Shown piece by piece: positions 3,651 through 47,957 of a stretch of DNA of 50,912 nucleotides; positions within the stretch are counted from its first letter, which is position 1; every line of letters starts with the position of its first letter. The DNA is from a virus. The notes beneath the pieces were generated by a model. It made no database searches. It was given only the letters and a program-made list of their open reading frames with translations, and was not told the DNA's origin. A program made the translations under genes and the position numbers. Location of the stretch: the IMG/VR virus record IMGVR_UViG_3300037137_001575, positions 1 to 50,912 of that record. The stretch is one strand, 5' to 3'.

Positions 3651-3737
3651 TGGATTACCTTAAGCAATAGTTTTTCTTTTCTTTTGAGTGTCCAAAAATT
3701 TCTATATCTCATAATGCTAATATATCAATTTACAAAT

Positions 3738-3769
3738 AAAAAGCTAGGTTATTCCTAACCTAGCTTTTT
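3738..3769 (-). terminator. intrinsic terminator
   Basis: A perfect 14-base stem (AAAAAGCTAGGTTA and its complement) with a four-base loop. The flanking A and T runs give a U-tail in both directions. It lies just past the 3' end of the minus-strand acidic-protein gene ending at 3788. Confidence 0.85.
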
Positions 3770-3787
3770 AAAGGTGTTATGACCGAA

Positions 3788-7226: not shown

Positions 7227-7238
7227 GCTCAATACAAT

Positions 7239-7268
7239 AAAAAAAGCCAGGTTAACCTGGCTTTTTTT
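7239..7268. terminator. bidirectional intrinsic terminator
   Basis: Stem AAAAAGCCAGG / CCTGGCTTTTT around TTAA, with A and T runs on both sides. It lies between convergent genes. Confidence 0.9.
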
Positions 7269-7281
7269 ATTTAAGTTTTAA

Positions 7282-25897: not shown

Positions 25898-26566
25898 ATG
25901 GCAATTTGTAACGAACAACAGCCTTTAAATAAAGCTAATATATTAGAAGACTTGGCTTTTGGTACGCCTTGCGGTGCAGGGACTCAACTCCCAATGGGTC
26001 TTGGGGCTATAGGCAATGGTAAGGTTATTTTCAAAAGGAAGTTTCGTTGGACGTTTGAAGTCGAGTTTTGCTGTGATTCAGGCGTACCGAAAGTAGTTGC
26101 TAGGGAATTTGTTAAAATCGGTGCGCGTCCACAGATTGACTTCGAAGAAGTTGAAATTAATTACTTAAACGGCAAGATGTGGATTCCTGGCAAGGGTACT
26201 TGGCAGACAATGACAGTAACATATTATGATGTTGCGGGTCAGACAGATAATGGTATAAACACATCAACGGTTCTTGCTTGGATCGCTACAATTTACGATT
26301 TTAATGATCCTATATGTTTACAAATGAACAGTGTCCCTGCGAACTACGAGGGCATTGCTCGTCTGGTTCTTTGGGATGGCTGCGGTAATCCACTGGAAGG
26401 TTGGATATTGCGTCACGTTTGGCCACAATCAGTTAATTGGGGCGATTTGGATATGTCAAGCTCCGAAGAATGTACTGTTGAACTTACGTTGCGTTATAGT
26501 GAAGTAAGTTATCAAAACTTCTGCGGTCCAACTGCCTTGAAATGCCCATGCGGTCCATGTGTGTAA
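25898..26566 (+). CDS. tail tube protein, copy A (gp19-like)
   Basis: 222 residues. It shares KRKFRWTFEVEF near the N-terminus and the C-terminal block LWDGCGNPLEGWIL...WGDLDMSSSE...LTLRYSEVSYQNF with two other genes in the window (26635 and 33785). This is the T4 gp19 / contractile tube family layout, with F-R-W and the last strands L-x-L-R-Y. AAGGAG lies upstream. It follows the sheath gene and ends at a terminator, so it may be the major tube subunit. Confidence 0.7.
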   Translation: MAICNEQQPLNKANILEDLAFGTPCGAGTQLPMGLGAIGNGKVIFKRKFRWTFEVEFCCDSGVPKVVAREFVKIGARPQIDFEEVEINYLNGKMWIPGKGTWQTMTVTYYDVAGQTDNGINTSTVLAWIATIYDFNDPICLQMNSVPANYEGIARLVLWDGCGNPLEGWILRHVWPQSVNWGDLDMSSSEECTVELTLRYSEVSYQNFCGPTALKCPCGPCV

Positions 26567-26580
26567 TCAAAATAAAAATC

Positions 26581-26612
26581 AAAAAGAGGGGGATTTCTTC
26601 CCCCTCTTTTTT
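26581..26612 (+). terminator. intrinsic terminator
   Basis: Stem AAAAAGAGGGGGA / TCCCCCTCTTTTT with a five-base loop and further T. It separates the two tube genes and probably sets their relative amounts. Confidence 0.9.
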
Positions 26613-26634: not shown

Positions 26635-27402
26635 ATGGCTGATTGTAAGGGCGAACCGATGGGATTTTTCCGTCCTGAATGGGGCGGCACAGGCGATGCT
26701 GGAACGGCAAAGAGAAAATTCCGATGGCTTTTCGATATAGAAAACATCACACTTGGTAATGACACCGCATTACCATGCATAAAAGCTGCTCGTCCAAAAC
26801 TTACTTTCAAAGAAATGCAAGCAGAGCATTTAAACGAAACAATTAGTTATCCTAGTAAACCAGAATGGCAACCAATCCAGCTATCTCTTTACGACAGATG
26901 CATTAATGTTCAAAACCCTATTTTCACATGGTTAAAAAAGCAATACAATCCAGTCCCAACGGATGATGATGAGCTTCCTGGTTGTAGCGACTGGTTTCCA
27001 TGCATAGACCCCCTATCATTTAAAGTATGTTGTACGTTGAAATTACTTGATGGTTGCGGAAACAAGTTAGAAGAATGGACATTGGAGCATTGCTATCCCC
27101 AAAATATTGATTGGGGTGACTTAGATATGAGTAGCAGCGAAATTGTCACTGTTGACTTTAGCCTAAGATACGATAGAGCATTTCAGACATTCCCATCAAA
27201 AGATCATAAATTATATACAAAAACAGAATGTGCTAGTTGTACCGATCCTAAAGACTGTGGTGATGATAGTGAAGGTACACTTGCGATAAATTCAATGAAC
27301 ATCACCGCCATGTTAAGAAATGCAACCAGCATGAGTGTGACAGTCCAAAATAATTTAGGAAATATAAAACTCAATGAGCCTGACTTTGTAATGATTATTT
27401 AA
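26635..27402 (+). CDS. tail tube protein, copy B
   Basis: 255 residues, paralogous to copy A: KRKFRWLFDIEN, LLDGCGNKLEEWTL, WGDLDMSSSE, FSLRYDRAFQTF. It has an extra 60-residue C-terminal extension (with CASC and a Ser/Thr/Asn-rich end). GAGG precedes the ATG and CATATATAC lies about 13 bases upstream, so it may have its own promoter after the terminator. It could be a tail-completion or second tube protein. Confidence 0.65.
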   Translation: MADCKGEPMGFFRPEWGGTGDAGTAKRKFRWLFDIENITLGNDTALPCIKAARPKLTFKEMQAEHLNETISYPSKPEWQPIQLSLYDRCINVQNPIFTWLKKQYNPVPTDDDELPGCSDWFPCIDPLSFKVCCTLKLLDGCGNKLEEWTLEHCYPQNIDWGDLDMSSSEIVTVDFSLRYDRAFQTFPSKDHKLYTKTECASCTDPKDCGDDSEGTLAINSMNITAMLRNATSMSVTVQNNLGNIKLNEPDFVMII

Positions 27403-27652: not shown

Positions 27653-28183
27653 TTACCCTTTTACAACATAATTATTAGTATTTTGCGGTTTGTGTCTCAG
27701 TAAAACCTTCTCCACTTGGTTTTGTAGGAAGTCGTGATACTTTTTCTTAAGTTCATTATAATTTCGAGCGGTTCGATAGAGTTGTCTGTAGTGATTAAGA
27801 ATACAAGTTGTCATGTAATTGAATGCTTTACCTTTCTGTGGGTCAAAACGATCTATTTTCTCAAAACAAATCATTACTCCTTCTTGGATAGCATCATCTA
27901 TATCAATGAGATTAAACTTAGCATACCTTACTATGTTTTCCGACAATGTAAGGAAAGCGAGAGCCAACTGTTGTTGAGCGTCAATATAAGCTGTACTGGC
28001 AAACTTATACATATTTGAAAATCTGTCTAATCGTAGGATGAAATCCACACAATCATTGCCGCGATTAATCGCGCCTTGCAAATCTTCAATACAAATCTCA
28101 TATTTGCTCTTTTCCCTCTTGGACTGTTGAAATCTGGCAATAACTTCTTCAAAAATCTTGTTATTTAAATACTCCGTACTCAA
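27653..28183 (-). CDS. late-gene sigma factor, T4 gp55-like
   Basis: 176 residues with a TTG start, supported by AAGGAG five bases upstream. The centre (residues about 75-145) holds sigma region 2: LALAFLTLSENIVRYAKF, DIDDAIQEGVMICFEKIDRFDP, GKAFNYMTTCILNHYRQLYRT. This matches the -10-reading helix pair of gp55, a reduced sigma that reads only TATAAATA-like octamers. The protein would divert host RNA polymerase to late phage promoters. AT octamers of this kind stand before many genes here. Confidence 0.75.
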   Translation of the reverse strand: MSTEYLNNKIFEEVIARFQQSKREKSKYEICIEDLQGAINRGNDCVDFILRLDRFSNMYKFASTAYIDAQQQLALAFLTLSENIVRYAKFNLIDIDDAIQEGVMICFEKIDRFDPQKGKAFNYMTTCILNHYRQLYRTARNYNELKKKYHDFLQNQVEKVLLRHKPQNTNNYVVKG

Positions 28184-31516: not shown

Positions 31517-32608
31517 ATGTCAGAAGAAATTATTCGTCAAGAAAATCGTGACCCTGCCGCTATGAGCGAGAATGCAATCAAATTCATGGGAAAAGTACCG
31601 CCACAGTTCCATGATGCTCTAAAACAAGTAAAACAAGAAAAAACAACAGGTACGGCGGATGCCAAACTAGCGAACCAAAAAGACCCGTTTGCAGACTTGG
31701 GGCCAGTTGAACCAGCGGTTGAACAGCCCAAAGTGCGGCCACAAACCGCCAAGCTGCAAGGTAAGGTTCGTTCCGTGGGCAGTCCTCAATTAGAAGGAAT
31801 TCTTGAACAACTACGCGGACAAGCTTTTATTTATGACGAAATAACATTACCGTCTAAGGGTACATTCTATAATGGTGGTGATGGTCCAACGGATGGTGTT
31901 ATCCACGTTCGTCCGATGACAGGCGAAGAGGAACAAATTCTAGCTACACCAAGATATGTTAAGAGGGGTACGGCTATTAACATGATCTTCCAGCGATGTA
32001 TTAAAGAAACCATCAAGGCTGACGAACTCCTTTCCATTGACAGAACTTATCTTCTCATTGCATTAAGAAGTATTTCATACGGTCACGAATATGAAGTAGA
32101 GATTAAATGTCCAGACTGCGACAAGAAATTTAACTATACAATCAGGCTCGATCAATTGATAGTAAATTATTGTCCTGCTGACCTACAAACACCTTTAACT
32201 GATGTATTGCCTAAATCCAACCTTAATTTTGTCTGGCATTTCCCACGGGGCAAAGATGAAATAGCGGTTACAGATTATCGTGAGAAAAGAGTGAAGGAAT
32301 ATAGTGATGCTACAATAGACGATAGTTTGTTATATCGAATTGCCTTAATGTTGGATAGTATTGAAGGAGTTAGTGATAAAATAGAGTTAATGATTTTACT
32401 GAAGAAGCTTCCAATTCAGGATGTTTCTTACTTAAGGGGTCTGGCTGTTGATCCTCCATTCGGCGTAGATACTAAGTGCGAAATCACTTGTCCTTTGTGC
32501 TTCCATGATTTTGACGTTGATTTGCCACTTGAAGCAGGTTTTTTCTTCCCACGGCACAAGAAAAAGAAGGAGGGGCCGACGAGGGACTCGGATTCTGGTA
32601 CTACCTAA
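31517..32608 (+). CDS. baseplate hub protein, T4 gp26-like
   Basis: 363 residues. After a 90-residue variable N-terminus it shows the family core: ITLPSKGTFYNGG, VIHVRPMTGEEEQIL, the Cys pair CPDCDKKF, and CPLCFHDFDVDLPLEAGFFFP. These match the T4-type baseplate protein family (gp26-like) of cyanophages. AAAGGAG precedes the ATG. The stop overlaps the next start as TAATG. Confidence 0.7.
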   Translation: MSEEIIRQENRDPAAMSENAIKFMGKVPPQFHDALKQVKQEKTTGTADAKLANQKDPFADLGPVEPAVEQPKVRPQTAKLQGKVRSVGSPQLEGILEQLRGQAFIYDEITLPSKGTFYNGGDGPTDGVIHVRPMTGEEEQILATPRYVKRGTAINMIFQRCIKETIKADELLSIDRTYLLIALRSISYGHEYEVEIKCPDCDKKFNYTIRLDQLIVNYCPADLQTPLTDVLPKSNLNFVWHFPRGKDEIAVTDYREKRVKEYSDATIDDSLLYRIALMLDSIEGVSDKIELMILLKKLPIQDVSYLRGLAVDPPFGVDTKCEITCPLCFHDFDVDLPLEAGFFFPRHKKKKEGPTRDSDSGTT

Positions 32609-32999: not shown

Positions 33000-33749
33000 G
33001 TGGCTGCATTAAAAGACCGATATCAAAACCCAACAATTGGTGATACAGTAAGACTAAAGTTCTTTGTCTTAAACTCCAATATGACCGCCGAAGTGCAAGC
33101 TATTAATGAAATAAGAATATACTATTTAGATCAAGATGTTTGCAAGTGCGATCCTGTTACGATGGGAAGAGTATTAGTACAAACCATTCCAGCATCAAGC
33201 GTTGTTAACCCTACTCAGGGTGAATATTACATTGATTTGTATTTAGACCCAACAATTTACACTAAATTAGGTCGCTATGTAGATGAATGGGAAGTTGTGT
33301 TTCAGCCTGGCGATACACCCGCCAATCATGACCAGCTATTTCAAGTTTTTTCTGAATTATGGTACACAACGCCTATCCCTATAGTTTATGACTTTAGTTT
33401 CTATTTCCAGCCAAATAAGATGAGATTTGGTGAAGTAAAATCAATTGAAATAGAAATTATACCTAATGTGCCAAGAGCTACAGATTTATGTGCCTATTAT
33501 GAGAATTTGGCTATTTCAGCCCAACTTTTCGTATTTATAAGTCAGCGATGCGGTGATTGTCTGCCTTGCGAAAGTGATTTGAGGTTAGTGGTCGATAGAC
33601 AACCAACAGATTATAGAGAAAAAAATAGAGGTTTTTATAAGATAGATACTAGGAAGTTTGATTGCGGGATATATGACATATGGTTTGAGTTAGATTTTGG
33701 CACAAATATCTATATATCGGACACAAACCAATTTCAAATTTATTCTTAG
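33000..33749 (+). CDS. virion structural protein of the tail module
   Basis: 249 residues with a GTG start (AAAGGGTAAAA before it). Blocks IGDTVRLKFFVLNSN, GEYYIDLYLDPTIYTKLGRYVDEWEVVF, PIPIVYDFSFYFQPNKMR and DCGIYDIWFELDFGTNIY indicate two Ig-like beta domains. Very similar block order is familiar in structural proteins of T4-like phages. Two Cys pairs (CKC, CGDCLPC) lie in loops. Located between baseplate and tube-like genes, so likely a tail or baseplate component. Confidence 0.6.
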   Translation: MAALKDRYQNPTIGDTVRLKFFVLNSNMTAEVQAINEIRIYYLDQDVCKCDPVTMGRVLVQTIPASSVVNPTQGEYYIDLYLDPTIYTKLGRYVDEWEVVFQPGDTPANHDQLFQVFSELWYTTPIPIVYDFSFYFQPNKMRFGEVKSIEIEIIPNVPRATDLCAYYENLAISAQLFVFISQRCGDCLPCESDLRLVVDRQPTDYREKNRGFYKIDTRKFDCGIYDIWFELDFGTNIYISDTNQFQIYS

Positions 33750-33784
33750 GTCACTCATATACACACAAAATTTAAAGGAGACAA

Positions 33785-34240
33785 ATGGACAGAGAGGTAA
33801 GATGCAGTATTAAGGAAAAGAAAATTGAAAAACCAAAAGTTGACATGCAAGGACACCCAGCACACTCACCAAACATAGTAATTCCAAGGACTTTTAGATG
33901 GACGTTAACTAATGAAAATTATCCAGACATTCACTATTGGATGAAATCTATAAAAACTGAATACGCTAGAAAAAGAATTATTATTGAAGTCTTTGACGAC
34001 GCTAAAGGCGCAGTTTTTACCTGGATGCAAGCCTTAGTAGATGAGGACAAAAACGCCGCCAGCGCCACCCTAACACATTTAGATGGATGTGGAACCCCAA
34101 TTTCATTAATTAATTTCATGGGGTTGAAGATCGAAGATCACTCCACCGCATATGATTACGGAAGCAGCGAAATTCTCACACACAAAGTCGTAATCACATA
34201 CAACAAAGTAAAAAGAGTCAACCAACTTAACTTGGCTTAA
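33785..34240 (+). CDS. tail tube-like protein, copy C
   Basis: 151 residues. It shares the family block TLTHLDGCGTPIS, then DYGSSEILTHKVVITY with copies A and B (LDGCGN, WGDLDMSSSE, LRY), and an early RTFRWTL matching KFRWTF. It is shorter, without the N-terminal extension. AAAGGAG precedes the ATG. It may be a tail-tube cap, initiator or T4 gp54-type component; the choice cannot be made from sequence. Confidence 0.6.
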   Translation: MDREVRCSIKEKKIEKPKVDMQGHPAHSPNIVIPRTFRWTLTNENYPDIHYWMKSIKTEYARKRIIIEVFDDAKGAVFTWMQALVDEDKNAASATLTHLDGCGTPISLINFMGLKIEDHSTAYDYGSSEILTHKVVITYNKVKRVNQLNLA

Positions 34241-34249
34241 GCCTAAGCT

Positions 34250-34321
34250 TTACGTCAAAATCCGCCATTGAAAAAGCAAATTCTACAGTTTCCTGCTTAC
34301 CAATGGCGGATTTTGACGTAA
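34250..34321. repeat. 21-bp perfect inverted repeat with inner stem
   Basis: Arms 34250-34270 and 34301-34321 are perfect complements (key half TTACGTCAAAATCC). An inner AAGCA/TGCTT pair (34274-34278 with 34294-34298) lengthens it to one hairpin of about 72 bases. There is no U-tract after it. It stands before the ParB-like gene. Confidence 0.9.
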
Positions 34322-34442
34322 GATAGGGAGTCAGTTGTGGCTGAAACTAAAATTTCTGCAAAAATGATTTTGCGGTTTCACAAAAAAGTAGTAAATTAAC
34401 ATGGCAACTAAGCCAGACGGACCAAAAGACTTTGGAGGTACA

Positions 34443-35690
34443 ATGTCTAAGAAGTCCCGACAGCGGAAGTGGCGGCGGGTTGAAGCACAGAAACGTCAGC
34501 TTGCGCTAAATCCAGACGTAAGCGATGGTGGGATGAGTGAAAACACCATCGGTGATCTTAGGCTGCTACTGACGAAGATGGGGGGCGCTAAGTCTATTGA
34601 GGTTGCGCCGACCGTCCCAAGTCAGATTGCTCTTGCCACATCGAACCTTCCTGTTGCCCCCGTTCCTGTTACGCCACCTGCTCCGCAAGTGGTCCTTTTG
34701 CCTGGGCCTGCGCATTGGCCAGCCTGTCCTGTAAACTGTGATGCCGCCGAATGGCGGCGAGCGATGGAACACCACGACTACTACTTGCAATGCGCTGAGA
34801 AGGATAATAACGCAAAACCGTGGTTCCAGTACCCTCGCGTGGTCCATCAGTATAGCGAATTCGTCTACATCACGCCTGAAATGGCTCAGAAATTGCTGGA
34901 CTACAACCCCATTAACCGCAAGATTAAGATGGGGCATGTGGAAGGTCTAAAGCGGGATATTCAGAATCACCGCTGGCTGCAAACGCATGAGTCCATTGCC
35001 GTTAATAAGCTCGGCAATATGCACGATGGGCAGCATCGTGCGCTGGCTATTATCAAGGCGTGGACTGGCTGGCCAATCTATCTGACGTGGAACGTGCCGC
35101 CAGAAGGCATCTACGCGACTGACAGCGGCGACAAGCGGCCCATCAACGAAAAGCTGGGTTTCCTGTTCCCCGACCTGAAGATGACCAACAAGACGGCGGC
35201 TCTTTGCCGTTCCATGATGTGGGGACTGAGTAATCGCGGCCTCCGCTATACGGAGTCTGAGATTGCTTCGTTCATGCTCAAGCATCAGCGTGTTATTAAC
35301 TGGATCATGACTAACGTGCGCAGCAAGTACGTTAATTACCGTGCTGACTTGCAAGCCGTTATCGGCAAGGGTATGTTGTGGTGGGGTGAAGAAATCGTTG
35401 GACCATTCGTGGAACGACTCCGCACGGTGCAATTCTGCGGTGAAGGTGATCCCGCAAAGGCACTGTATCTCTGGCTGCAAAATTCCAAGAAACAAAAAAG
35501 CAACGTTCCGCCAGTCATCTACTACAAGAAGGCACTGGCTGCTATCCATGCACACGCTCTGAAGCGTGACGCCAAGCGTATCATCTCGAAAGAACAGGAT
35601 ATCTTCGAGTGGTTGCCTGGATGGAATATTCCAGATGACGCGCTTTGCGCGGGCAAGGTTTTCATCCATAGTGACGAAAACCAACCCTGA
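34443..35690 (+). CDS. ParB-like nuclease-domain protein, GC-richer than its neighbours
   Basis: 415 residues from ATG 34443, with GGAGGTAC directly upstream; an ATG at 34401 would add 14 residues. A basic head and Pro-rich linker lead to the ParB/sulfiredoxin-like domain: YITPEMAQKLLDYNPINRKI, then MHDGQHRALAII (DGQHR at 195-199), then DSGDKRPIN. The C-terminal domain (about 295-395) has GKGMLWWG, PFVERLR, FCGEGDPAKALYLWL and DIFEW, and recurs alone in the gene at 38548. GC content is visibly higher than elsewhere, suggesting recent acquisition. Long inverted repeats lie on both sides. Confidence 0.7.
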   Translation: MSKKSRQRKWRRVEAQKRQLALNPDVSDGGMSENTIGDLRLLLTKMGGAKSIEVAPTVPSQIALATSNLPVAPVPVTPPAPQVVLLPGPAHWPACPVNCDAAEWRRAMEHHDYYLQCAEKDNNAKPWFQYPRVVHQYSEFVYITPEMAQKLLDYNPINRKIKMGHVEGLKRDIQNHRWLQTHESIAVNKLGNMHDGQHRALAIIKAWTGWPIYLTWNVPPEGIYATDSGDKRPINEKLGFLFPDLKMTNKTAALCRSMMWGLSNRGLRYTESEIASFMLKHQRVINWIMTNVRSKYVNYRADLQAVIGKGMLWWGEEIVGPFVERLRTVQFCGEGDPAKALYLWLQNSKKQKSNVPPVIYYKKALAAIHAHALKRDAKRIISKEQDIFEWLPGWNIPDDALCAGKVFIHSDENQP

Positions 35691-35699
35691 ATGTAACTA

Positions 35700-35757
35700 A
35701 AACGAAAAAGGAAAATAATGGTGGACATAAATTCACCATTATTTTCCTTTTTCGTTT
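35700..35757. repeat. 24-bp perfect inverted repeat
   Basis: Arms 35700-35723 and 35734-35757 are perfect complements around a 10-base loop (arm begins AAACGAAAAAGG, ends AATGGTG). It follows the ParB-like stop by nine bases. It may act as a terminator, though T's are inside the stem rather than after it. Confidence 0.9.
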
Positions 35758-35812
35758 CGCCTAATTTGTAGTATAGTAAGGGAGAACCACCAAACAAAAT
35801 CGGAGCATGGCC

Positions 35813-37294
35813 ATGCAAGTTGTGCGGGAATTGAGGGATGAAAAACTTGATTTCTGGATTAAGAACAATCTCAACGTTCTTTTTGTTGGTCATTATGGCG
35901 CAGGCAAAACGACACGAATCATAGAAGCCTTTAAGAGAAATAATCTAAAGTTTAAGCCTTACAGCGCCGCCACAATGGACCCTTGGTGCGACTTCATCGG
36001 TGTACCGAAGGTTGTCACCGATGACAAAGGTTCATATCTAGATTACATCCTCCCCCGCGACCTACGCGACGATACCATTGAAGCAATCTTTATGGATGAA
36101 TTCAACCGCTCCCACAAGAAAGTGCGGAATGCGGTCATGGAATTGCTTCAGTATAAAAGCATCAATGGAAGACCATTCAAAAATCTCCGCTTCATTTGGG
36201 CCGCAATTAATCCAGAAGATGAAGGCGATTATCAAGTCGAGGCTTTAGATAAAGCACAAAAGGACCGCTTTGAAGTCCAGGTTGGTATTCCTTATGAACC
36301 AAAGTTAGCCTATTTTGTAAGTAAATTTGATAATCGTCAAGCCAAAGCAGCGGTCGGTTGGTGGCAATCGCTAACTCCTGAACAACAGATGGAAGTAAGT
36401 CCGCGTCGTCTTGAATATGCCCTCAAGATGTTCAACATCCCTGGCGGCGATATCAAAGACGTGCTGCCGCATTCTACAAACCCTTCCAAACTAAGTAATT
36501 TACTCAAGACTGGTCCCATTGATGATCGCTTGAAGGATTTGTTCAGTAAAAATGATCTGGATGCCGCTAAAAAGTATCTGCAAGTTGAAAACAACTATGC
36601 GGCAGCGGCAAGGTATCTTGTTGCTCATATTCCAGAAGATGTAGACGCGGACGATTGGATGCTGTTCTTCTTACAGTCCGTCACCACAGAAAAGTTGGCA
36701 TCCATGTTGGCTAGCAATGAAGCTGCCTATAACTTCATTGTTGCCAACTGTGATAAGGTGCCAATCTTCTCGCGTCTAATCAGAGACGCTTTGAAGACGA
36801 ACACCGATAAGGTTCTGGTTCGAAGATTGAAGAAGGAGATTGACAATAACAAGCTGCTAACAGCGGTGTTCGGAAGCGCCTCCGCAACTAGCACGCCAGA
36901 GAAACCTTATTGTAGCCACCGTATCACAGCGGTCCAGTGGTCAACTCGTATCGCTGGCTGGCTCTCTCAGCCGCTAGATACAACGCCACAGCGTACTAAA
37001 GTCTACGATGATCTTATGGAAAATATTCCGCAGACTCTGACGCTCAATGAAGCGGTTGATACTTTGGAAATGATTAACATGCTGGCAACTCGCTCACATG
37101 CAGATACAATTACAAAATTCCGTCATTTGGCTGGTGTTGTTAATCATTGTATTGACAGGATCAATCAGGCAAGTGGGTTATCTTGGAATGAAATTTTGAC
37201 TAACTATGGTCAAAAATTCAGCAGTCTTTTGGACAAGATGCGGGATAATGGCTTAGAAAAGAAGCTATATTGTCCTGTAAAAAAGGCTAACTAA
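35813..37294 (+). CDS. MoxR-like AAA+ ATPase
   Basis: 493 residues from ATG 35813, chosen because GGAG lies seven bases upstream; ATG 35807 is too close to it. Walker A GHYGAGKTT (26-34), Walker B AIFMDEFNR (D95, E96), and a sensor-like WAAINPEDEG follow. The remaining 300 residues are helical and specific to this group. MoxR ATPases act as chaperones for partners holding VWA domains, and a VWA protein is the next gene (TAATG overlap). The two probably form one complex. Confidence 0.8.
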   Translation: MQVVRELRDEKLDFWIKNNLNVLFVGHYGAGKTTRIIEAFKRNNLKFKPYSAATMDPWCDFIGVPKVVTDDKGSYLDYILPRDLRDDTIEAIFMDEFNRSHKKVRNAVMELLQYKSINGRPFKNLRFIWAAINPEDEGDYQVEALDKAQKDRFEVQVGIPYEPKLAYFVSKFDNRQAKAAVGWWQSLTPEQQMEVSPRRLEYALKMFNIPGGDIKDVLPHSTNPSKLSNLLKTGPIDDRLKDLFSKNDLDAAKKYLQVENNYAAAARYLVAHIPEDVDADDWMLFFLQSVTTEKLASMLASNEAAYNFIVANCDKVPIFSRLIRDALKTNTDKVLVRRLKKEIDNNKLLTAVFGSASATSTPEKPYCSHRITAVQWSTRIAGWLSQPLDTTPQRTKVYDDLMENIPQTLTLNEAVDTLEMINMLATRSHADTITKFRHLAGVVNHCIDRINQASGLSWNEILTNYGQKFSSLLDKMRDNGLEKKLYCPVKKAN

Positions 37295-38538
37295 TGATTA
37301 CTCATGCCGAATGGATGGAGATTAGTCTTGCCCTAGAAGATCACCATGCCATATTCTATGAATTATGGCACATGGGTCGTCCATTCTTTACTGATGACAT
37401 TGAAACCGCTGCCGTCCGTTTTGCGGGTGATAGCGGTGAATTCGTTGAATTCCTATTCAACCCCGAATATTGGAACAACCTCACCCCTTACGAACGCCTG
37501 TTTGTGATCTCCCATGAATGCCTGCACGTCATTTTAAATCACGGTATCCGAACCACAAAAGGCAAGGATGCACCACGAATCAATACGGCGCTGGATATCG
37601 TCGTGAATCATCTGTTGGTAAATGCATTCGGGTTTGACCGTTCACGAATCAGGGATGAAGACGTGCTGTGCTGGACGGACACAACTTTCAAGGATGATCC
37701 CAAAATGGCCGAGATACCAACAAACGAATCGTATGAATATTATTATCAGAAAATACCAGAGTCAATGGTAATTGATGTCTTCACAATTGACGATCATTCC
37801 TTCCTGAATGGGGAAGTAGATACCATTATAGACAAATTGGACAGCAGACTTACCCAAGAAGAAAAAGGTACTATTAAAGACGTAATTAAAAAACATTACG
37901 CTAAAGAGAAAACGGAATATGAGGACGAACGCGGTGGGTACGGTTGTGGCCACTGGTCTTTCATTAACGTAGCTCCAGTTACAGCGAAAAAAAAATGGGA
38001 GACGGTGATATTCAAATGGAGTCAGAAGTACATGCGGGCGGGGCTGGATGAACACGAACAGTGGGCGCGAGTGGCTCGCCGCTTTGAATTGCTGCCTCAA
38101 GAAATCATCCTGCCAAGCGAAATGGAAGATGAATCAAAGGACTTTGATCGTATACCTATCCATTTGTACATGGACACATCTGGTTCTTGTGTAAAATACA
38201 AGGACCGATTTTTTCGAGCGGCTATGTCCTTACCAAAGGACAGATTCGTGGTAAGATTGTTTTGTTTCGACGTTGCGGTTCACGAAACAACGCTTGTCTC
38301 CCGTAAAATTTACGGTGGAGGTGGCACTTGTTTCGATATTATTGAACAGAACGTTCAGAAGGTCATGAAGGCGGAAAAATCCGCCTATCCAGAAGCTGTT
38401 TTCTTAATTACAGATGGGAAGGGAAGTCCTGTTGTGCCAAAATTTCCTGAACGTTGGCACTGGTTCATGACTAGGAATGCTTCATCTGCTTACATTCCAG
38501 ACAAAAGCAAAACCTACAAACTCGACAACTTTGAATAG
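37294..38538 (+). CDS. metallopeptidase-like plus VWA domain protein, MoxR partner
   Basis: 414 residues. The N-terminal domain has the zinc motif HECLH (74-78) followed by NH and ALDIVVNHLLV, as in the putative metallopeptidase domain DUF2201. The C-terminal VWA-like domain has a MIDAS: DTSGS (294-298), GGGGTCFD (T345), LITDGKG (D374). Start overlaps the ATPase stop, so a fixed ratio is likely. Such ATPase/VWA pairs occur in bacteria and phages without settled function. Confidence 0.8.
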   Translation: MITHAEWMEISLALEDHHAIFYELWHMGRPFFTDDIETAAVRFAGDSGEFVEFLFNPEYWNNLTPYERLFVISHECLHVILNHGIRTTKGKDAPRINTALDIVVNHLLVNAFGFDRSRIRDEDVLCWTDTTFKDDPKMAEIPTNESYEYYYQKIPESMVIDVFTIDDHSFLNGEVDTIIDKLDSRLTQEEKGTIKDVIKKHYAKEKTEYEDERGGYGCGHWSFINVAPVTAKKKWETVIFKWSQKYMRAGLDEHEQWARVARRFELLPQEIILPSEMEDESKDFDRIPIHLYMDTSGSCVKYKDRFFRAAMSLPKDRFVVRLFCFDVAVHETTLVSRKIYGGGGTCFDIIEQNVQKVMKAEKSAYPEAVFLITDGKGSPVVPKFPERWHWFMTRNASSAYIPDKSKTYKLDNFE

Positions 38539-38547
38539 GAGGGAATG

Positions 38548-39126
38548 ATGGGTCGCGTTACAGCCAGAGGCAACCGATTTGACAGCATTGCAAACCAAAT
38601 GATGAAGGGGTGCAACGGCAAAGTTAAGGCCAACAACGTTGCTGGAACCCAGCAAGAAATGGATGACTTCAAGAGAGTTTATAACGACACAATAACTTAT
38701 CTTGAAAATACATTGCCAAAGGATTTGAGTGTGGCTGTCTGTGGCGCACTTGGCAAGGCAATCCTTTGGCATGGTAAGAAAACCATGCACCCGTTTGTAG
38801 AAGCGGTTGCAAGGCGTGAATTCAAAGGTCATGGCGATCCATGCCTGGCACTGTGGGAATGGCTTGTTCGATATAACAAACGTAATAACACGGAAGAAAT
38901 TTACCGTCGAACCGTCACGGCCATTCGTATCTTTTTGCGCAGTGGAACCTTCAAAGGTCATTTGAAACCTGCCCTGGACGACTTTTTTGAGTGGCAGAGT
39001 AATTATCGCGTTATGTGTCAGCCAAAAAGGAATCAGGTTGGTACAAGTCTAAAATCACCAACGAAACAATCCGATGAAGCGATCTTGGCCGACGTGGAAG
39101 ATGCGCTCAGTGGTTCACCTACTTAA
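38548..39126 (+). CDS. stand-alone copy of the ParB-like protein's C-terminal domain
   Basis: 192 residues from ATG 38548, with GGAGG five to six bases upstream; ATG 38545 is too near. The core matches the C-terminal domain of the gene at 34443: GALGKAILWHG, HPFVEAV, FKGHGDPCLALWEWL, IYRRTVTAIRIFL, DDFFEW. It lacks the ParB-like part. The gene directly follows the VWA gene, so the domain appears at both ends of one cluster. It may be an adaptor or a regulator of the ParB-like protein. Confidence 0.7.
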   Translation: MGRVTARGNRFDSIANQMMKGCNGKVKANNVAGTQQEMDDFKRVYNDTITYLENTLPKDLSVAVCGALGKAILWHGKKTMHPFVEAVARREFKGHGDPCLALWEWLVRYNKRNNTEEIYRRTVTAIRIFLRSGTFKGHLKPALDDFFEWQSNYRVMCQPKRNQVGTSLKSPTKQSDEAILADVEDALSGSPT

Positions 39127-39149
39127 AATTTACAGAATGTTACTGTAAT

Positions 39150-39175
39150 AGTAATGAGGACAACCCCTCATTACT
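39150..39175 (+). promoter_or_regulatory. 10-bp perfect hairpin just before the bS21-like start
   Basis: AGTAATGAGG pairs fully with CCTCATTACT around a six-base loop. It ends two bases before the ATG and buries the only purine-rich GAGG. It could control translation of the bS21-like gene, or end the upstream transcript. Confidence 0.6.
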
Positions 39176-39177
39176 AA

Positions 39178-39405
39178 ATGGCAAATATAGTTAGGTTAAG
39201 AGTAGAGCGTAAGGATGGACCTGACGCTTTCAAAAACATGCTCAAAGCATGGAAACGACAAAAGAAATGGATTGATAAGGAACACAAAATTCATAGTTCC
39301 TTTGAAACTGAATCCCAAAAGAAACGACGCCGACGAAGGCGAAACTGGATTAAGAAACAACAAGAATTAAACTGTAAACCAGAAAGCGTTATCCTCCTTG
39401 AGTAA
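39178..39405 (+). CDS. rpsU: probable ribosomal protein bS21
   Basis: 75 residues, very basic. Layout fits bS21: a first strand with VRLRVERKDGPDAF, a helix NMLKAWKRQKKWI, the aromatic F near SSFETESQKKRRRRRR, then a basic helix. Length (bS21 is about 70) agrees. bS21 genes are known from several large phages, where they may replace the host protein in the small subunit and bias initiation. Similarity is by pattern, so another basic protein is possible. The 3' end overlaps the converging nuclease gene by 39 bases. Confidence 0.55.
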   Translation: MANIVRLRVERKDGPDAFKNMLKAWKRQKKWIDKEHKIHSSFETESQKKRRRRRRNWIKKQQELNCKPESVILLE

Positions 39406-39921
39406 CTTATCAAGATGAACAATCGCCCAATCTTTATAAATTAAGAGATAATCCCATTCTCTGAGGACCAGTGCGCCTTCTGCGTGGAACTTGGGCAAGT
39501 GTTCTATTTTCAAAATGGCAAGCAATGGCTTGCGGGACTTCTTCCACACAACCATCGGTTTACGTTTACAGCGGTCGGCATCAAATTGTGCTTGCTCCAA
39601 GAATTCATTAATTTGTGAATGGCCACCGTCAAATACGGATACCAAATCAACGTCGTCGTAACCGCCCTTACTTTCAATCGTGAAACCAAAATTTTCAGGG
39701 GTAACTAAATCACCTGAAAAAGTATCCTGTGCGTGCTTCGGCAAGTTAGCGACCTGGGACCAGCGATTACCTGACCCTACTGACCTGGAAAATCCACCTC
39801 CAAATCGGTCATTAAATACTTTCGCCACTTCACGTTCACGTCGCTTACCTTTACGGCCTGTGTTTAATTTCTTTTTCTTTGGCATAAGAAAACTGTCTTC
39901 TACAAAAAAATCTTCATCCAT
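39367..39921 (-). CDS. PD-(D/E)xK endonuclease, Holliday-junction-resolvase-like
   Basis: 184 residues; a later ATG at residue 13 (MPKKKKLNTGRKGK) is also possible. It has GRKGKRREREVAKVFNDRFGG, FSRSVGSGNR, GDLVTPENFGFTIESKGGY, where the Asp in GDL and E-S-K give the D...ExK core, and a C-terminal strand set. This is the form of phage resolvase-like nucleases. It would cut branched DNA in recombination or packaging, in agreement with the gp46-like gene. Exact substrate is inferred. Confidence 0.65.
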   Translation of the reverse strand: MDEDFFVEDSFLMPKKKKLNTGRKGKRREREVAKVFNDRFGGGFSRSVGSGNRWSQVANLPKHAQDTFSGDLVTPENFGFTIESKGGYDDVDLVSVFDGGHSQINEFLEQAQFDADRCKRKPMVVWKKSRKPLLAILKIEHLPKFHAEGALVLREWDYLLIYKDWAIVHLDKLLKEDNAFWFTV

Positions 39922-39968
39922 ATGAAGTTATTTAGTAAATATAACCAATATTAAAAGGTTTGTCAATC

Positions 39969-39976
39969 TATAAATA
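39969..39976 (+). promoter_or_regulatory. exact T4 late promoter octamer TATAAATA
   Basis: TATAAATA ends five bases before the GTG of the DUF1003 gene. It equals the T4 gp55 recognition octamer. The distance would leave no untranslated leader, so its use is uncertain. Confidence 0.35.
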
Positions 39977-39980
39977 ACAA

Positions 39981-40472
39981 GTGGTGCAAAATGATGATAG
40001 GACATTCGGAGAAAGAGTAGCAGATGACGTAGCGACCTTCGCAGGATCGTGGAAGTTCATCATTTTGTTCGGCGCTATACTTGCGTGCTGGGTTGTGTTC
40101 AACTCATTGGATGTAACTAAACCATATCATTTTGACCAATTCCCCTTCATCTTGCTTAATTTGCTTCTGAGCTTTGTGGCCGCATTTCAGGCTCCATTCA
40201 TTATGATGAGCCAAAATAGATCAGAAAAGAAGCAAGATATAGCCTACCGTGCTATTTTCATAGAATTGAAAGAGCTAGTAGAACAGGATATAGCCCACGA
40301 AGAAGAGATTAAAGGGCTAGAAAGACAAATACAGACAGATTTGGAAAGATTAATAGCCACGCAAAATAAATTGCTGGAAGCTCTCAGTCAAGCAATTAAG
40401 TTAGGACAGATGACCAGTGAAGGCGTTGCAGAAGTATTGGAACACCTAGAAGATGAGACTACCGAGCAGTAA
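39981..40472 (+). CDS. DUF1003 membrane protein
   Basis: 163 residues with a GTG start (a second GTG follows). The block GERVADDVATFAGSWKFIILFG, then FPFILLNLLLSFVAAFQAPFIMMSQNR and a Lys/Glu helix, are the features of DUF1003, with two membrane helices. No Shine-Dalgarno sequence is visible. The role of the family is unknown; a phage copy may alter the host inner membrane. Converges with the next gene over 14 bases. Confidence 0.8.
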   Translation: MVQNDDRTFGERVADDVATFAGSWKFIILFGAILACWVVFNSLDVTKPYHFDQFPFILLNLLLSFVAAFQAPFIMMSQNRSEKKQDIAYRAIFIELKELVEQDIAHEEEIKGLERQIQTDLERLIATQNKLLEALSQAIKLGQMTSEGVAEVLEHLEDETTEQ

Positions 40473-40896
40473 TTTCTTCTTGAAGCCACTTATCTAATCT
40501 TTTGAACGCACCTGGAAAACTTCGCTTCGTAAAATAAGAGTCTATGACTTTATACATGTCATCATAGTCCATTTTTACTTCCTCGAAGCTGGGCTTCTCC
40601 ATTTTCCCAAACACACTCTCCAGCAATTTCATAGCTTCTGCTACTTCCTTATTACTTTTCTTTTTCTTGCGACTGCCCATATCCTGATAATATAGATCGT
40701 CCCAATATTTAGGGAAAACTATACCCGCTAATGTACTATCCATATATCTTAGTTGATGGAGAAGACCACAACTGCAAAACGGATGCTGAGCAGAGTAAAT
40801 TTCACAATCCCCATAGTGAAGGAATTGCTTTCTTGACTCAACCCAATACCGCTTAATTAGAATGCCTAATTTATGTACCTCTGAGGTAATTCGCAT
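40459..40896 (-). CDS. hypothetical protein with Cys cluster
   Basis: 145 residues from ATG 40896, one base after the upstream stop; longer in-frame readings run through that gene. It has CSCG in an aromatic region (YSAQHPFCSCGLLHQLRYMD), then a charged, Lys-rich helical half. No family recognised. Co-transcribed with the gene at 40898. Confidence 0.5.
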   Translation of the reverse strand: MRITSEVHKLGILIKRYWVESRKQFLHYGDCEIYSAQHPFCSCGLLHQLRYMDSTLAGIVFPKYWDDLYYQDMGSRKKKKSNKEVAEAMKLLESVFGKMEKPSFEEVKMDYDDMYKVIDSYFTKRSFPGAFKRLDKWLQEEITAR

Positions 40897-43016: not shown

Positions 43017-43237
43017 CAGTAACTCCACTGATTATAGTTGCCGATAGTCTTCAATTCTTCTATCGTATAAGATTTTTTAGCACAAGAAGGGCAAAACATC
43101 AATGTTCTTAATTTTAAATCAAACTTAATAAGAACTTCAACAAAACCTGCTTCAGCTTTAGTGTAAGCATGGTCACAAATATGGTCTTTTTTTGGCGTTT
43201 CACGGCCACACATACAGCAAATTGAATTATATGTCAT
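43016..43237 (-). CDS. small zinc-finger protein
   Basis: 73 residues with two Cys pairs, CCMCGRE (with a following C and H) and CPSCAKK. Its Cys4-type spacing suggests one zinc site. It lies between the methyltransferase and CTP synthase, overlapping both ends. No function assigned. Confidence 0.6.
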   Translation of the reverse strand: MTYNSICCMCGRETPKKDHICDHAYTKAEAGFVEVLIKFDLKLRTLMFCPSCAKKSYTIEELKTIGNYNQWSY

Positions 43238-43904
43238 TCATTAATTGAGTTTCTTCTATTCGCTTTTTGGTAATTGCCACATATTCTTCACTAAGGTCAA
43301 AAGCCAGGTAATTGCGTCCCTCCATCTTTGCCGCTACTGGAGTCGTGCCGCTACCAACACATGGATCGAAAACAGTATCTCCCGCATTGGAACTCACTTT
43401 AACAAGATATCGAAATAGATCAAGTGGTTTCTGTGTAGGATGTAACTGTTTTCTTACCACGGGGTAACGCCATACCGTGTTTTTACAGTGTTCATTGAAT
43501 ACCGCCTTCTTCTTTTTGCCGTATACACAGCATTCTACGCCAGAAAGCCATATGTATTGCCCATTTACTGGTGAAGGATTGGTTTTTTCATAAATACACA
43601 ATCTCGTTGAAAGACCATGTTTAATTAATTCCGCTCGCAGAAAGCTAACTTGTTCCGTCGAACAAAAAATGTAAATACTACCTTTAGTCACTCGGACGAC
43701 TTCAGCAACAAATACATCCAAATCAAATGTTTTAGAATCTGCATCTGTTTTATCAAAGTTTCGAAGTCCATTTGAATCACGATTAACAACATCGTAAGGA
43801 ATATCAGTCAATGTCATTTCCACAGCGTCATTTGGCAACAATTTCATCAATTGGATGCAATCACCACAAGTTATTGTATTCATTGGGTTTACGACTATAA
43901 CCAT
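43227..43904 (-). CDS. orphan DNA methyltransferase, beta class
   Basis: 225 residues (an ATG at 43883 gives 218 and the common MNTITCGDC start). Order is motif IV (TDIPYD, with Ile in place of the usual Pro) before motif I (FDPCVGSGTTPVAA), the beta-class arrangement that makes N4-cytosine or N6-adenine methylation. A target domain with HPTQKP precedes motif I. No restriction partner is near, so it probably protects phage DNA. The target site is unknown. Confidence 0.85.
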   Translation of the reverse strand: MVIVVNPMNTITCGDCIQLMKLLPNDAVEMTLTDIPYDVVNRDSNGLRNFDKTDADSKTFDLDVFVAEVVRVTKGSIYIFCSTEQVSFLRAELIKHGLSTRLCIYEKTNPSPVNGQYIWLSGVECCVYGKKKKAVFNEHCKNTVWRYPVVRKQLHPTQKPLDLFRYLVKVSSNAGDTVFDPCVGSGTTPVAAKMEGRNYLAFDLSEEYVAITKKRIEETQLMNDI

Positions 43905-45212: not shown

Positions 45213-47957
45213 CTATGCTTCACAACTTGCACATGCTAAAATATTTCTAGCAAAATTTTGGGCTGCATTGATGCTGTACTGATAATAAAATGATTTAATT
45301 TTCATCTGCCAGCCTTCTATAATCAAAGCATTTACATCTTTAATCGGAATTGAAGGATGAATCATTATGTTTAAACTTTGTCCTTGGTCAATATATTTCT
45401 GACGCTGAGCAGCTTGAATTATAATTTCTCTAGGCGTAATCTCACCAAACGTTTTAAATACATCCTTCTCATATTTGGTAAGGAAATCTAAATGCTGCAC
45501 ACTGCCGCCATTCTTCAATATGTTAGACCAAGTTACTTCATCATTCTTACCTTTAGTCTCAAGTAGTGACTCAAGATAAGTGTTCTTCATTGTGTATTTG
45601 CCCTTCTGTAAATCCTTAATGACAATATTGGTGCGATTAGGCTCTGTGTTCTCCGAAACTTGACCCATGATGAATGCAGAAGACTTAGTTGGTGCAATAG
45701 CCAGCAATGTAGAATTCCTACGACCATAGCCCTTCAATACTTCTGGTTCACCATATTCCTGCGCAAGCTTGGCTGATGCTTTATAGGCAGCTTCCTTTAT
45801 ATTCTTGGCAATGGTAACATTGGCATACTTAGCTTCCATACTCTCGAATGGAATCATTTTACTTTGTAGATAGCTGTGGTAGCCAAGCCAACCAATACCA
45901 AGTGCGCGGTGCCGCTCTGCAAAACGTACAGGCCGCGACATAAACTCGACCTTCTTGCCCTTCTCAATGAATTCCGTCATTACAGCATCAAGGAAATAAG
46001 TTAACAACTCAACAGCATCAGTGTCTTTCCATTCATCAAAATAGAGGATATTCATACTGGATAAATCGCATACGAAAGATTCATCTTCACTGTCTGGCAA
46101 AAAAATTTCTGTGCAGTTAGATGTAACAAAACTATTACATACCCACATATGCTCATCAGATTGAACAGTAGTGCAATATACATCTTCCTTACCAACATAT
46201 TTAACTTCTTTTACAGTATCAAATTTTTTAGTGTTATCTCTGTAAATTCTGTCTTCTAATTGCACGTTTTTCCTTGAAAGAAAACCAGTAGCTTTTTCCA
46301 CAGTGATTGCGTCTGGTTTATTAGATATAATTAAACGATATTTTGCTTTACAAAGGTATTGTTTTCTGCCGCCGTGACCATCTGGGAGAAGTTGTCTGCC
46401 TTCTTCTCCAGACAAATGAATTGAAGGCTTTAGTCCCAAGTTAGACATTAATATTTGGATTTCTTGGAGCCATTCAAAATTCGTAGATGTAATTGAAACT
46501 TGAATTGGGTTTCCTTTTGAGTTCCCAAGTTCCACTGTCCCATCTGTAAATAACAAACCGCGCAGATATTGCCATTGTGTGACTTCATCAGCGGCCCAAA
46601 TCCAATCTGGAATGTGTCCTTTCTGAAATCCATCCTGTTTTAACTTAGCACTTTGAAGTCGTAATTTCTTCACACCACCTTCAGATGGCAATTGGTCAAA
46701 AAAAGTAGGGATGGTTGTTGATCGCTCGTATTCTCCTCGATTTGGAACATTTACTTTATAATTAAGCCAGTTATTCTGCTTATAAACGGTCTTAACACAT
46801 GCCTCGATTTCTGATTTTAAATCAAAATCATTTTCCCACAAATCAATAAAAACATTTTCATCTGTTTGCGTTCCATCACCTTGATATAGACCAAATAAGA
46901 AAGCTTTTTCAGGTGCATGATTACTGCCGAATAAACCTTTTTTCTGTTGAACACAAATTTTGACACCTGGGGATAATGAATTGCATTCAATCATCCCCTT
47001 ATCCGTTTTAACTTTATGATATCCAGTTACTTTATGAGAACGACCTGCTTCAGTAATAATTTCATATACATCAACTGACTTTTCTATTAACTTCATTGGC
47101 GATGCGGAAACTGATTTTTCCCCATCAAACAAAGTCAAAAATGCTTGGGTTTTGAATAAGTCATAAACCCTTTTCATACCAGTAGATGTTACAACAAGTT
47201 GGTCGCCAGTAATGCAGAGGTTTGAGTGTGTGATAGGCAAATTTTTATAACAATCTGGTTTATTGTTGTTTACATTGTCTGTAAAAAAGATATAGGGATA
47301 GCCCTTATTTGCACGGCTCTCTAACACTTTAGCCCAAATCACTCGCTTGTCTTTATCGCCATCAACCATTGACTGCATCCACGCATCAGAAACACAGACG
47401 CCGAAAGACAAATCTTGAATCATATGGCCTTCATTACGAATACCAATAAATTCAACAATGTCTTTATGGTCAATGGGAAGGTAAGCAGCAAAATTACCCC
47501 TCCTGGTAGTCCCTTGACTGACAACATTAATTAGATTCTCGAACATGGACATAAAATGAACGGAGCCAGAACTTTGCCCATTCTGCCTAATTGATTCTCC
47601 ACGCCCACGCAAGTTGCCAAAATACGCACTGGTCCCACCGCCATGTTTTGTCATCATGCCAACTTCAGCATGAGTATACAAAATAGATTCCATAGAATCA
47701 CATATATAACTTCCAAAGCAACTGATCGGCAAACCTCTAGCTGTGCCAAAATTAGACCATATTGGACTACTGAGAGAATACCAACCCTTTTTCAAATTCT
47801 CTTTGAACTTGTTGGCAAAACCAGGCTTCTTCAAGATTCGTTCTGCTGTATCACATATTATATCAACTCTCTCTTCTACGCTTTGACCATCTACTAGATA
47901 ATCTCTTTCTAAAAACTGTCTGGAAAGATCGGTTAGCCATCTATATTCATTGCTCAT
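45213..47957 (-). CDS. nrdA: class I ribonucleotide reductase alpha chain, intein-containing
   Basis: 914 residues as translated; about 547 after splicing. The extein begins EYRWLTDLSRQFLERDYL without an ATP-cone, a short RNR form seen in phages and some bacteria. It includes SLSSPIWSNFGTARGLPISCFGSYI and KHGGGTSAYFG, the radical-site block NL-CTEI split by the intein, and a C-terminal CASCEA redox pair. It reduces NDPs to dNDPs with NrdB. Missing ATP-cone means no classic dATP shut-off. AAGGA and AGGA precede the ATG. NrdB lies just upstream in one operon. Confidence 0.95.
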   Translation of the reverse strand: MSNEYRWLTDLSRQFLERDYLVDGQSVEERVDIICDTAERILKKPGFANKFKENLKKGWYSLSSPIWSNFGTARGLPISCFGSYICDSMESILYTHAEVGMMTKHGGGTSAYFGNLRGRGESIRQNGQSSGSVHFMSMFENLINVVSQGTTRRGNFAAYLPIDHKDIVEFIGIRNEGHMIQDLSFGVCVSDAWMQSMVDGDKDKRVIWAKVLESRANKGYPYIFFTDNVNNNKPDCYKNLPITHSNLCITGDQLVVTSTGMKRVYDLFKTQAFLTLFDGEKSVSASPMKLIEKSVDVYEIITEAGRSHKVTGYHKVKTDKGMIECNSLSPGVKICVQQKKGLFGSNHAPEKAFLFGLYQGDGTQTDENVFIDLWENDFDLKSEIEACVKTVYKQNNWLNYKVNVPNRGEYERSTTIPTFFDQLPSEGGVKKLRLQSAKLKQDGFQKGHIPDWIWAADEVTQWQYLRGLLFTDGTVELGNSKGNPIQVSITSTNFEWLQEIQILMSNLGLKPSIHLSGEEGRQLLPDGHGGRKQYLCKAKYRLIISNKPDAITVEKATGFLSRKNVQLEDRIYRDNTKKFDTVKEVKYVGKEDVYCTTVQSDEHMWVCNSFVTSNCTEIFLPDSEDESFVCDLSSMNILYFDEWKDTDAVELLTYFLDAVMTEFIEKGKKVEFMSRPVRFAERHRALGIGWLGYHSYLQSKMIPFESMEAKYANVTIAKNIKEAAYKASAKLAQEYGEPEVLKGYGRRNSTLLAIAPTKSSAFIMGQVSENTEPNRTNIVIKDLQKGKYTMKNTYLESLLETKGKNDEVTWSNILKNGGSVQHLDFLTKYEKDVFKTFGEITPREIIIQAAQRQKYIDQGQSLNIMIHPSIPIKDVNALIIEGWQMKIKSFYYQYSINAAQNFARNILACASCEA
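46116..47216 (-). other. intein with LAGLIDADG endonuclease inside NrdA
   Basis: Residues 248-614 of the precursor (367 residues). It starts with Cys (CITGDQLVV), has a TxxH block (TGYH near 311-314), two LAGLIDADG blocks (FLFGLYQGDG near 353, YLRGLLFTDG near 464), and ends VTSN before Cys615. The insertion is directly before the catalytic thiyl-radical Cys (NL|CTEI), the residue equivalent to E. coli C439. The penultimate residue is Ser instead of the usual His. Confidence 0.93.

Follow-up and report, generated by a model that had tools for sequence, protein, structure and literature searches.

Two candidate functional pairs, MoxR/VWA-peptidase and ParB-like/solo C-domain, in one gene slot beside the tail genes of a huge-phage clade

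Pairs of a MoxR ATPase and a VWA-peptidase belong to the core gene set of N4-like phages and are met again in jumbo phages. Iyer et al. 2021 (PMC7824862) described a MoxR AAA+ ATPase paired with an N-terminal metallopeptidase-vWA protein in group 2.2 jumbo phages and proposed a role in virion assembly with peptidolysis. The N4 genes gp24 and gp25 are part of the N4-like core, with gp25 listed as vWFA and gp24 as unknown (PMC4193335, Table 3), a MoxR pair of two subunits had been remarked on in 2007 for phage 0305phi8-36, and for p618/p892 of ATV, a viral MoxR ATPase and its VWA partner, a chaperone role in tail development was reported (PMC4124505). MoxR-vWA ternary conflict systems were reported from bacteria and have VMAP, an inactive STAND, FtsH or a beta-propeller as their third component (PMC7159879). 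Here we analyzed virus record IMGVR_UViG_3300037137_001575, 50,912 nt in length (50.9 kb; hereafter the window), in which a cluster of four genes at 34401-39126 places a MoxR/VWA pair between a ParB-like gene and a gene for the ParB-like C-terminal domain on its own (solo). We propose that the cluster is made up of two interleaved functional pairs that share a single ancestral slot next to tail genes, a reading that we hold to be evenly poised between right and wrong.

The four genes and their slot across the clade

All four genes lie on the plus strand, where an earlier note on this DNA, made from the sequence alone, had placed them. The ParB-like gene (34401-35690) encodes a putative ParB/sulfiredoxin-type protein with the motif DGQHR at residues 209-213 and a basic C-domain of seven predicted helices at about residues 263-410. 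It is followed by the MoxR-type AAA+ ATPase gene (35807-37294; phrog_1297, E 4.6e-13), the metallopeptidase-VWA gene (37294-38538; phrog_1314, E 3.3e-32), in which an HECLH motif is fused to a VWA domain, and the solo gene (38545-39126; isoelectric point 9.4), a paralogue of the ParB-like C-domain that has no ParB/sulfiredoxin (Srx) domain. The tight spacing described for the whole cluster is limited to MoxR, VWA and solo, a stretch that is nearly contiguous in the window and in lineages L004, L005 and L014 and includes the previously noted TAATG overlap (37292-37296), where the MoxR stop TAA and the VWA start ATG share one base; the ParB-like and MoxR genes are separated by 116 nt that hold a 24-bp hairpin. 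The VWA and solo frames match, with a single TAG in between. TAG recoding that would fuse the two proteins was rejected and TAG treated as an ordinary stop in the window: it ends 6 of 51 open reading frames (ORFs), the other five extend just 2-20 codons beyond it, and the VWA-terminating TAG overlaps the solo ribosome-binding sequence TAGGAGG. Ratios of nonsynonymous to synonymous substitution (dN/dS) against L004 were 0.05-0.11 across the four genes, and the value of 0.08 for solo places it under purifying selection and indicates a maintained gene.

The slot, defined as the stretch between a baseplate gene and a conserved gene at position 33000 (the 33000 gene) on one side and a PDDEXK gene on the other, was traced through related contigs and yielded 15 lineages after near-copies were merged. 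Near-copies such as L003, L006, L008, L032 and L034 were dropped before counting, L044/L045 were tallied with L043, and L063, L065 and L073 with L064; L069, L071, L072, L078 and L079, which have MoxR/VWA only, were not counted, as their contigs showed none of the slot genes. Seven lineages have all four genes (the window, L004, L005, L014, L007, L037 and L066) and occur on both deep branches. The four-gene set is a conserved neighbourhood within the clade. Solo lies about 3-4 kb past VWA in L037 and about 9 kb from ParB-like in L066. The closest relative of the window in the phage collection, the 595-kb uncultured phage LR756511.1, has all four genes in unchanged order at 58-65% identity.

Either pair can be missing without the other. 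ParB-like and solo occur without MoxR/VWA in two lineages, L010 and L075, and in L010 neither VWA-family nor MoxR searches found MoxR/VWA in 85 kb. The MoxR profile search of L010, L008, L075 and L077 had no internal positive control; a single-protein MoxR search matched its positive controls G002 and W01, and a slot-profile search matched L078/L079. Conversely, MoxR and VWA occur alone in three lineages (L040, L068 and the L043 group). L040 is sister to the four-gene lineage L014 in the 33000, baseplate, VWA and MoxR trees (ultrafast bootstrap 96, 94, 85 and 89, respectively), which indicates that L040 descends from an ancestor with all four genes, lost ParB-like and solo and kept MoxR/VWA; a distant ParB-domain protein is present elsewhere in its record. 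Among the remaining lineages, the L064 group has ParB-like, MoxR and VWA with no solo seen (one lineage; about 23 kb downstream in a 56-kb record), L009 has the same three genes on a contig that ends inside VWA, and L077 has ParB-like alone, with 5 kb downstream seen; the absence of solo in L077 and L068 rests on 4-5 kb of flank. Solo is accompanied by ParB-like in 9/9 and by MoxR/VWA in 7/9 of the lineages that carry it, so that solo without ParB-like was seen in 0/9, and both were gone in 3/3 lineages without ParB-like. MoxR and VWA are adjacent in every clade member that has them. In L075, four ORFs (L075:3972-6902) sit between ParB-like and solo in the MoxR/VWA place; the two longer ones had no Pfam match, and it is possible that these ORFs replaced MoxR/VWA.

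The ParB-like gene, its hairpins and its solo paralogue

Two perfect inverted repeats, taken in the earlier note as the bounds of the whole cluster, turned out to be unrelated hairpins that flank the ParB-like gene only, each self-complementary and unlike the other. The upstream repeat (34250-34321) has 21 bp and a 30-nt loop; it also occurs in L004, is replaced by a different hairpin in L007, is weak in L005, and is absent from L014, L009 and L010. The downstream repeat (35700-35757, 24 bp) directly follows the ParB-like stop codon and has counterparts of different sequence in all nine lineages in which MoxR follows ParB-like. These start 9-19 nt past the stop codon and have 11-24 perfect pairs (z -2.6 to -6.9 versus shuffles); none was found in L010, L040 or L068. 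The downstream hairpin is terminator-like, and hairpins at these positions may mark transcript ends or processing sites, in which case the ParB-like gene would form a separate transcription unit. In the window, the exact T4 late promoter TATAAATA was counted just 1 + 3 times, never before any of the four genes, sigma-70 and terminator scans gave chance-level results with a scanner blind to loops >8 nt, and an RNA family search of window positions 33000-40500 gave no match. Further perfect intergenic hairpins were observed at 3737-3770, 7236-7271 and 26581-26611, the last lying between two tube genes with a counterpart in L004 and L005.

That the same C-terminal domain stands at both ends of the cluster was confirmed at several levels. 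Solo aligns with ParB-like residues 263-410 at 25% identity over 154 columns (BLASTP E 7e-11), a profile-profile comparison of six solo and seven ParB-like proteins gave 99.4% (hhalign, E 2.1e-21), and the three motif pairs quoted earlier for the two proteins are present as given. AlphaFold models have seven helices in matching order in both C-domains, built from shallow alignments of 7 and 11 rows, with a mean predicted local distance difference test score of 64 for ParB-like and 75.8 for solo. In a tree of 21 C-domains, a 100/100 branch splits nine solo from 12 ParB-like copies, placing a single duplication before the divergence of the sampled clade. A profile search found the C-domain exactly twice, with the copies no more than 10 kb apart, in each of four clade records larger than 340 kb (G002, W01, G007 and G015; 341-595 kb). 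In the L037 phage (L058, G007; about 148.6-150.6 kb), an ORF of 155 amino acids with the ParB N-domain only, and no DGQHR, was observed between VWA and solo; this ORF and solo are perhaps the split remnant of a second full-length copy.

Neither the ParB-like nor the solo protein matched Pfam, NCBIfam or PADLOC, libraries that may lack suitable models, and a defence system was rejected as a candidate, with no PADLOC match and no useful NCBIfam match. The ParB-like protein matches phrog_5931 (E 6.7e-29, residues 153-370 on profile positions 11-235) and aligns with other phrog_5931 proteins at 99.7% by hhalign. The solo profile matches nine further phrog_5931 proteins in their C-terminal region (hhalign 95.7%, E 9.1e-9); the phrog_5931 hidden Markov model alone gave just E 0.04 against solo. 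As judged from these alignments, phrog_5931 proteins regularly carry the shared C-domain, which is not peculiar to the cluster. ParB-like residues 147-244 weakly resemble a coherent set of folds, Srx and ParB/Noc/PadC (Z ≤4.7, Foldseek E 0.04), and a sequence search of solved structures with the ParB-like protein returned none. Against viral models, the best five of 98 solo matches had probabilities of 0.97-1.00, lengths of 264-355 amino acids and E-values of just 0.03-0.5; judging from their lengths, these five may be phrog_5931 proteins. DGQHR is altered in the ParB-like proteins of L064 (NGRHR), L066 (NGQHR) and L077 (NGQHR).

Outside the clade, 68 records matched phrog_5931, and nine were examined: phages of Vibrio (3), Gordonia, Brevundimonas (2), Microcystis and Pseudomonas, and a 485-kb uncultured phage. 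The earlier note had suggested that the shared domain may serve MoxR/VWA as a recognition adaptor; co-occurrence had been set beforehand as the check, and a lack of association in other genomes as the refuting outcome. The VWA family was found in 0/9 of these phrog_5931 records, MoxR was not found in LR745208.1, the sole one of the nine searched for it, and phrog_5931 was found in 0/4 VWA-family phages (Ea9-2, RD-1410W1-01, phiKT1024 and AR9). Together with the independent loss of either pair within the clade, this indicates that the shared domain goes with ParB-like and not with MoxR/VWA; the refuting outcome was obtained, and the adaptor proposal was not upheld. In bacterial genomes, the VWA profile matched two short contigs binned as Myxococcales, with MoxR and without ParB-like, and the ParB-like profile gave no match.

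The MoxR/VWA pair and the weighing of explanations

The catalytic and binding motifs of both MoxR/VWA partners are preserved. Walker A/B, sensor-1, arginine finger and sensor-2 are intact in 11/11 aligned MoxR proteins; a Walker A pattern search gave no match in the MoxR proteins of L071, L072, L078 and L079, which are outside the alignment. HExxH, the metal-ion-dependent adhesion site (MIDAS; DxSxS and (T/S)DG) and a downstream aspartate are present in 13/13 aligned full-length VWA proteins, and the window protein has HECLH and an intact MIDAS (DTSGS, TDG). It matches DUF2201_N over the Pfam cut-off (E 2.2e-8), a domain matched in 5/5 members, with its VWA domain under the cut-off. The window MoxR matches Pfam AAA_3 at E 0.0023, under the curated cut-off, and sequence searches of solved structures returned a single weak match for MoxR (2r44, E 6e-4) and one irrelevant match for the VWA protein. 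The homologous proteins of Ea9-2 (L026:5887-6981), RD-1410W1-01 (L027:5773-7053) and AR9 (L029:6919-8343) are labelled "HNH endonuclease", as is phrog_1314. Pfam finds a DUF2201_N metallopeptidase domain and a VWA-like domain in them but no HNH match, and judging from these domains the label seems to be a misannotation that was passed on.

In the first of the two proposed pairs, MoxR would act as a ring chaperone that remodels, by ATP hydrolysis, a client gripped by the VWA domain, and the zincin domain may cut the client held there. In this clade the pair would most likely serve virion assembly, at the tail or baseplate; the adjoining genes for tail sheath, sheath stabiliser, tube and baseplate, and the reported tail-development role of ATV p618/p892, a pair of this type, were counted in favour of the two-pair reading. 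We regard this mechanism as having slightly less than an even chance of being right. In the second pair, the ParB-like protein, of ParB/Srx type, would most likely bind nucleotide and DNA, and solo, sharing the contacts of the basic helical C-domain, may co-assemble with it in mixed complexes or restrain it. This mechanism is tentative and would sooner prove wrong than right.

Several observations weigh against the two-pair reading. The structural matches of the ParB domain are weak (Z ≤4.7), and the solo model had no significant match among solved structures in the PDB. The gene order has held together since the common ancestor of the clade, and the two pairs could for that reason be linked in some way. 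A role in late assembly only fits poorly with the annotated early promoter that precedes the AR9 pair and with the middle expression of the N4 pair (PMC4193335); the AR9 promoter suggests that roles of the pair may differ among phages. In the Vibrio phage phiKT1024 (W13, OM249648.1), the MoxR-like gene at 128 kb and the VWA-metallopeptidase gene at 82 kb are about 45 kb apart. Finally, lineages were found with the cluster genes themselves as queries, so presence and absence counts are biased, no association test is valid, and no association statistics are given; many records are fragments.

The four genes might instead merely sit side by side, as late genes in a huge-phage genome that rearranges slowly, with even ParB-like and solo functionally unlinked. 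The order of the baseplate, 33000, PDDEXK and CTP synthase genes is conserved to a similar degree as the cluster, which speaks for this, but solo was never seen without ParB-like, the two are gone together wherever ParB-like is missing, and records of 341-595 kb have no C-domain copies besides these two, which are no more than 10 kb apart; we consider this explanation unlikely, though not negligible. A four-part system, in which the C-domain as adaptor brings a target, ParB-like on DNA, to MoxR/VWA-peptidase, would account for the presence of all four genes in 7/15 lineages on both deep branches and for the near contiguity from MoxR to solo. It appears improbable given that either pair is lost independently, the C-domain is regular in phrog_5931 proteins of VWA-less phages, unrelated ORFs lie between ParB-like and solo in L075, and a conserved hairpin parts ParB-like from MoxR. 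Any direct link between the two pairs is something we strongly doubt. One speculative form of such a link would make ParB-like/solo the dedicated DNA-side partner of MoxR/VWA-peptidase: ParB-like would mark either phage DNA or a complex of DNA and protein, solo would compete for the C-domain interface, MoxR/VWA would remodel or cut the complex at packaging or tail joining, and phages that lost a pair would have substituted other genes, as in L075. We think it a long shot.

Within the second pair, ParB-like could alternatively be a DNA nuclease directed at host or rival DNA from which solo protects. Nuclease-active ParB/Srx relatives are cited in PMC4619093, no solo is found wherever ParB-like is gone, and L064, the sole long-flank ParB-like lineage without solo, has the altered motif NGRHR. 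This L064-type case is one lineage, however, and L066 keeps solo in spite of its altered NGQHR. We know of no activity for the phrog_5931 family, which was counted against this explanation as well, and we judge it very unlikely. The perfect inverted repeats on either side of ParB-like brought to mind a mobile element with terminal inverted repeats. This was rejected as next to untenable: neither end is an inverted copy of the other, the left hairpin is missing from L014, L009 and L010, and the right one is an intergenic feature that recurs with other sequence while keeping its fold. The clade offers natural gene removals in both directions in one slot, which makes the mutual dependence of the pairs readable and testable. 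ParB-like/solo, an ancient duplication kept over deep branches, illustrates cleanly how the copy of a single domain can be retained, here as a likely partner of the full-length protein that it came from, or as a brake on it.

Neighbouring genes and comparison with described systems

Genes for T4-like tail proteins (sheath stabiliser, sheath, two tube proteins and baseplate) lie mid-window, together with a late-sigma-like transcription factor gene (27653-28183, minus strand). Within the clade, the T4 baseplate protein gene (starting at 31517, plus strand) and the 33000 gene (33000-33749, plus strand; no function given) keep their places, and the PDDEXK_15 nuclease gene (39367-39921, minus strand; E 9.4e-22) forms the far boundary of the slot. 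A tail-tube-like gene (33785-34240, plus strand) gave a weak match and is not kept in all lineages; it is a third, weaker tube-like gene besides two tandem tail-tube paralogues (25898-26566 and 26635-27402), and was not found next to the cluster in L014, L010 or L040. A DNA N4/N6-methylase gene (43227-43904, minus strand) and a ribonucleotide reductase large subunit gene (45213-47957, minus strand) with an intein that has a LAGLIDADG domain inside (Pfam) were also observed.

Compared with described systems, phrog_5931 proteins, such as those of Vibrio phage 11895-B1 and Gordonia phage CaiB, share with the window protein the putative ParB/Srx-type domain, DGQHR and a homologous C-domain. The nine examined (267-433 amino acids) differ in that each record gave one match, so that no solo copy was seen, and no VWA family. 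The bacterial ternary conflict systems resemble the cluster in combining MoxR, vWA and a variable third component (PMC7159879); MoxR of the VMAP type has a motif-bearing N-terminal region before AAA+ (PMC7159879), whereas the window MoxR has Walker A at residue 28 and no extension. Pfam, NCBIfam and PADLOC, which may lack suitable models, gave no match of ParB-like or solo to VMAP, an inactive STAND, FtsH or a beta-propeller. ATV p618/p892 differ in belonging to an archaeal virus and in a vWA partner without a peptidase domain (PMC7824862). N4-like phages have an ATPase followed by a metallopeptidase-VWA protein, as in the window (phrog_1314, E 3.6e-129 in Erwinia phage Ea9-2 and 2.1e-111 in Roseobacter phage RD-1410W1-01). 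Their pair differs in its neighbours, which include dCTP/dCMP deaminase and thymidylate synthase genes and, in RD-1410W1-01, RNA polymerase genes, and neither of these two records has phrog_5931.

The jumbo-phage pair of Iyer et al. 2021 consists of the same two genes with the same domain fusion (PMC7824862). The main text of that paper never mentions ParB and places no ParB-like or solo protein with the pair, and in open-licence papers we found neither a description of a ParB-like/solo pair beside MoxR/VWA nor a report of clients of phage MoxR/VWA-peptidase pairs. The suggestion that no described system has this composition thus stands for ParB-like/solo beside MoxR/VWA and falls for MoxR with metallopeptidase-vWA: the latter combination was already published for jumbo phages in 2021, and the ancient ParB-like/solo pair beside it appears to be the part new to description.

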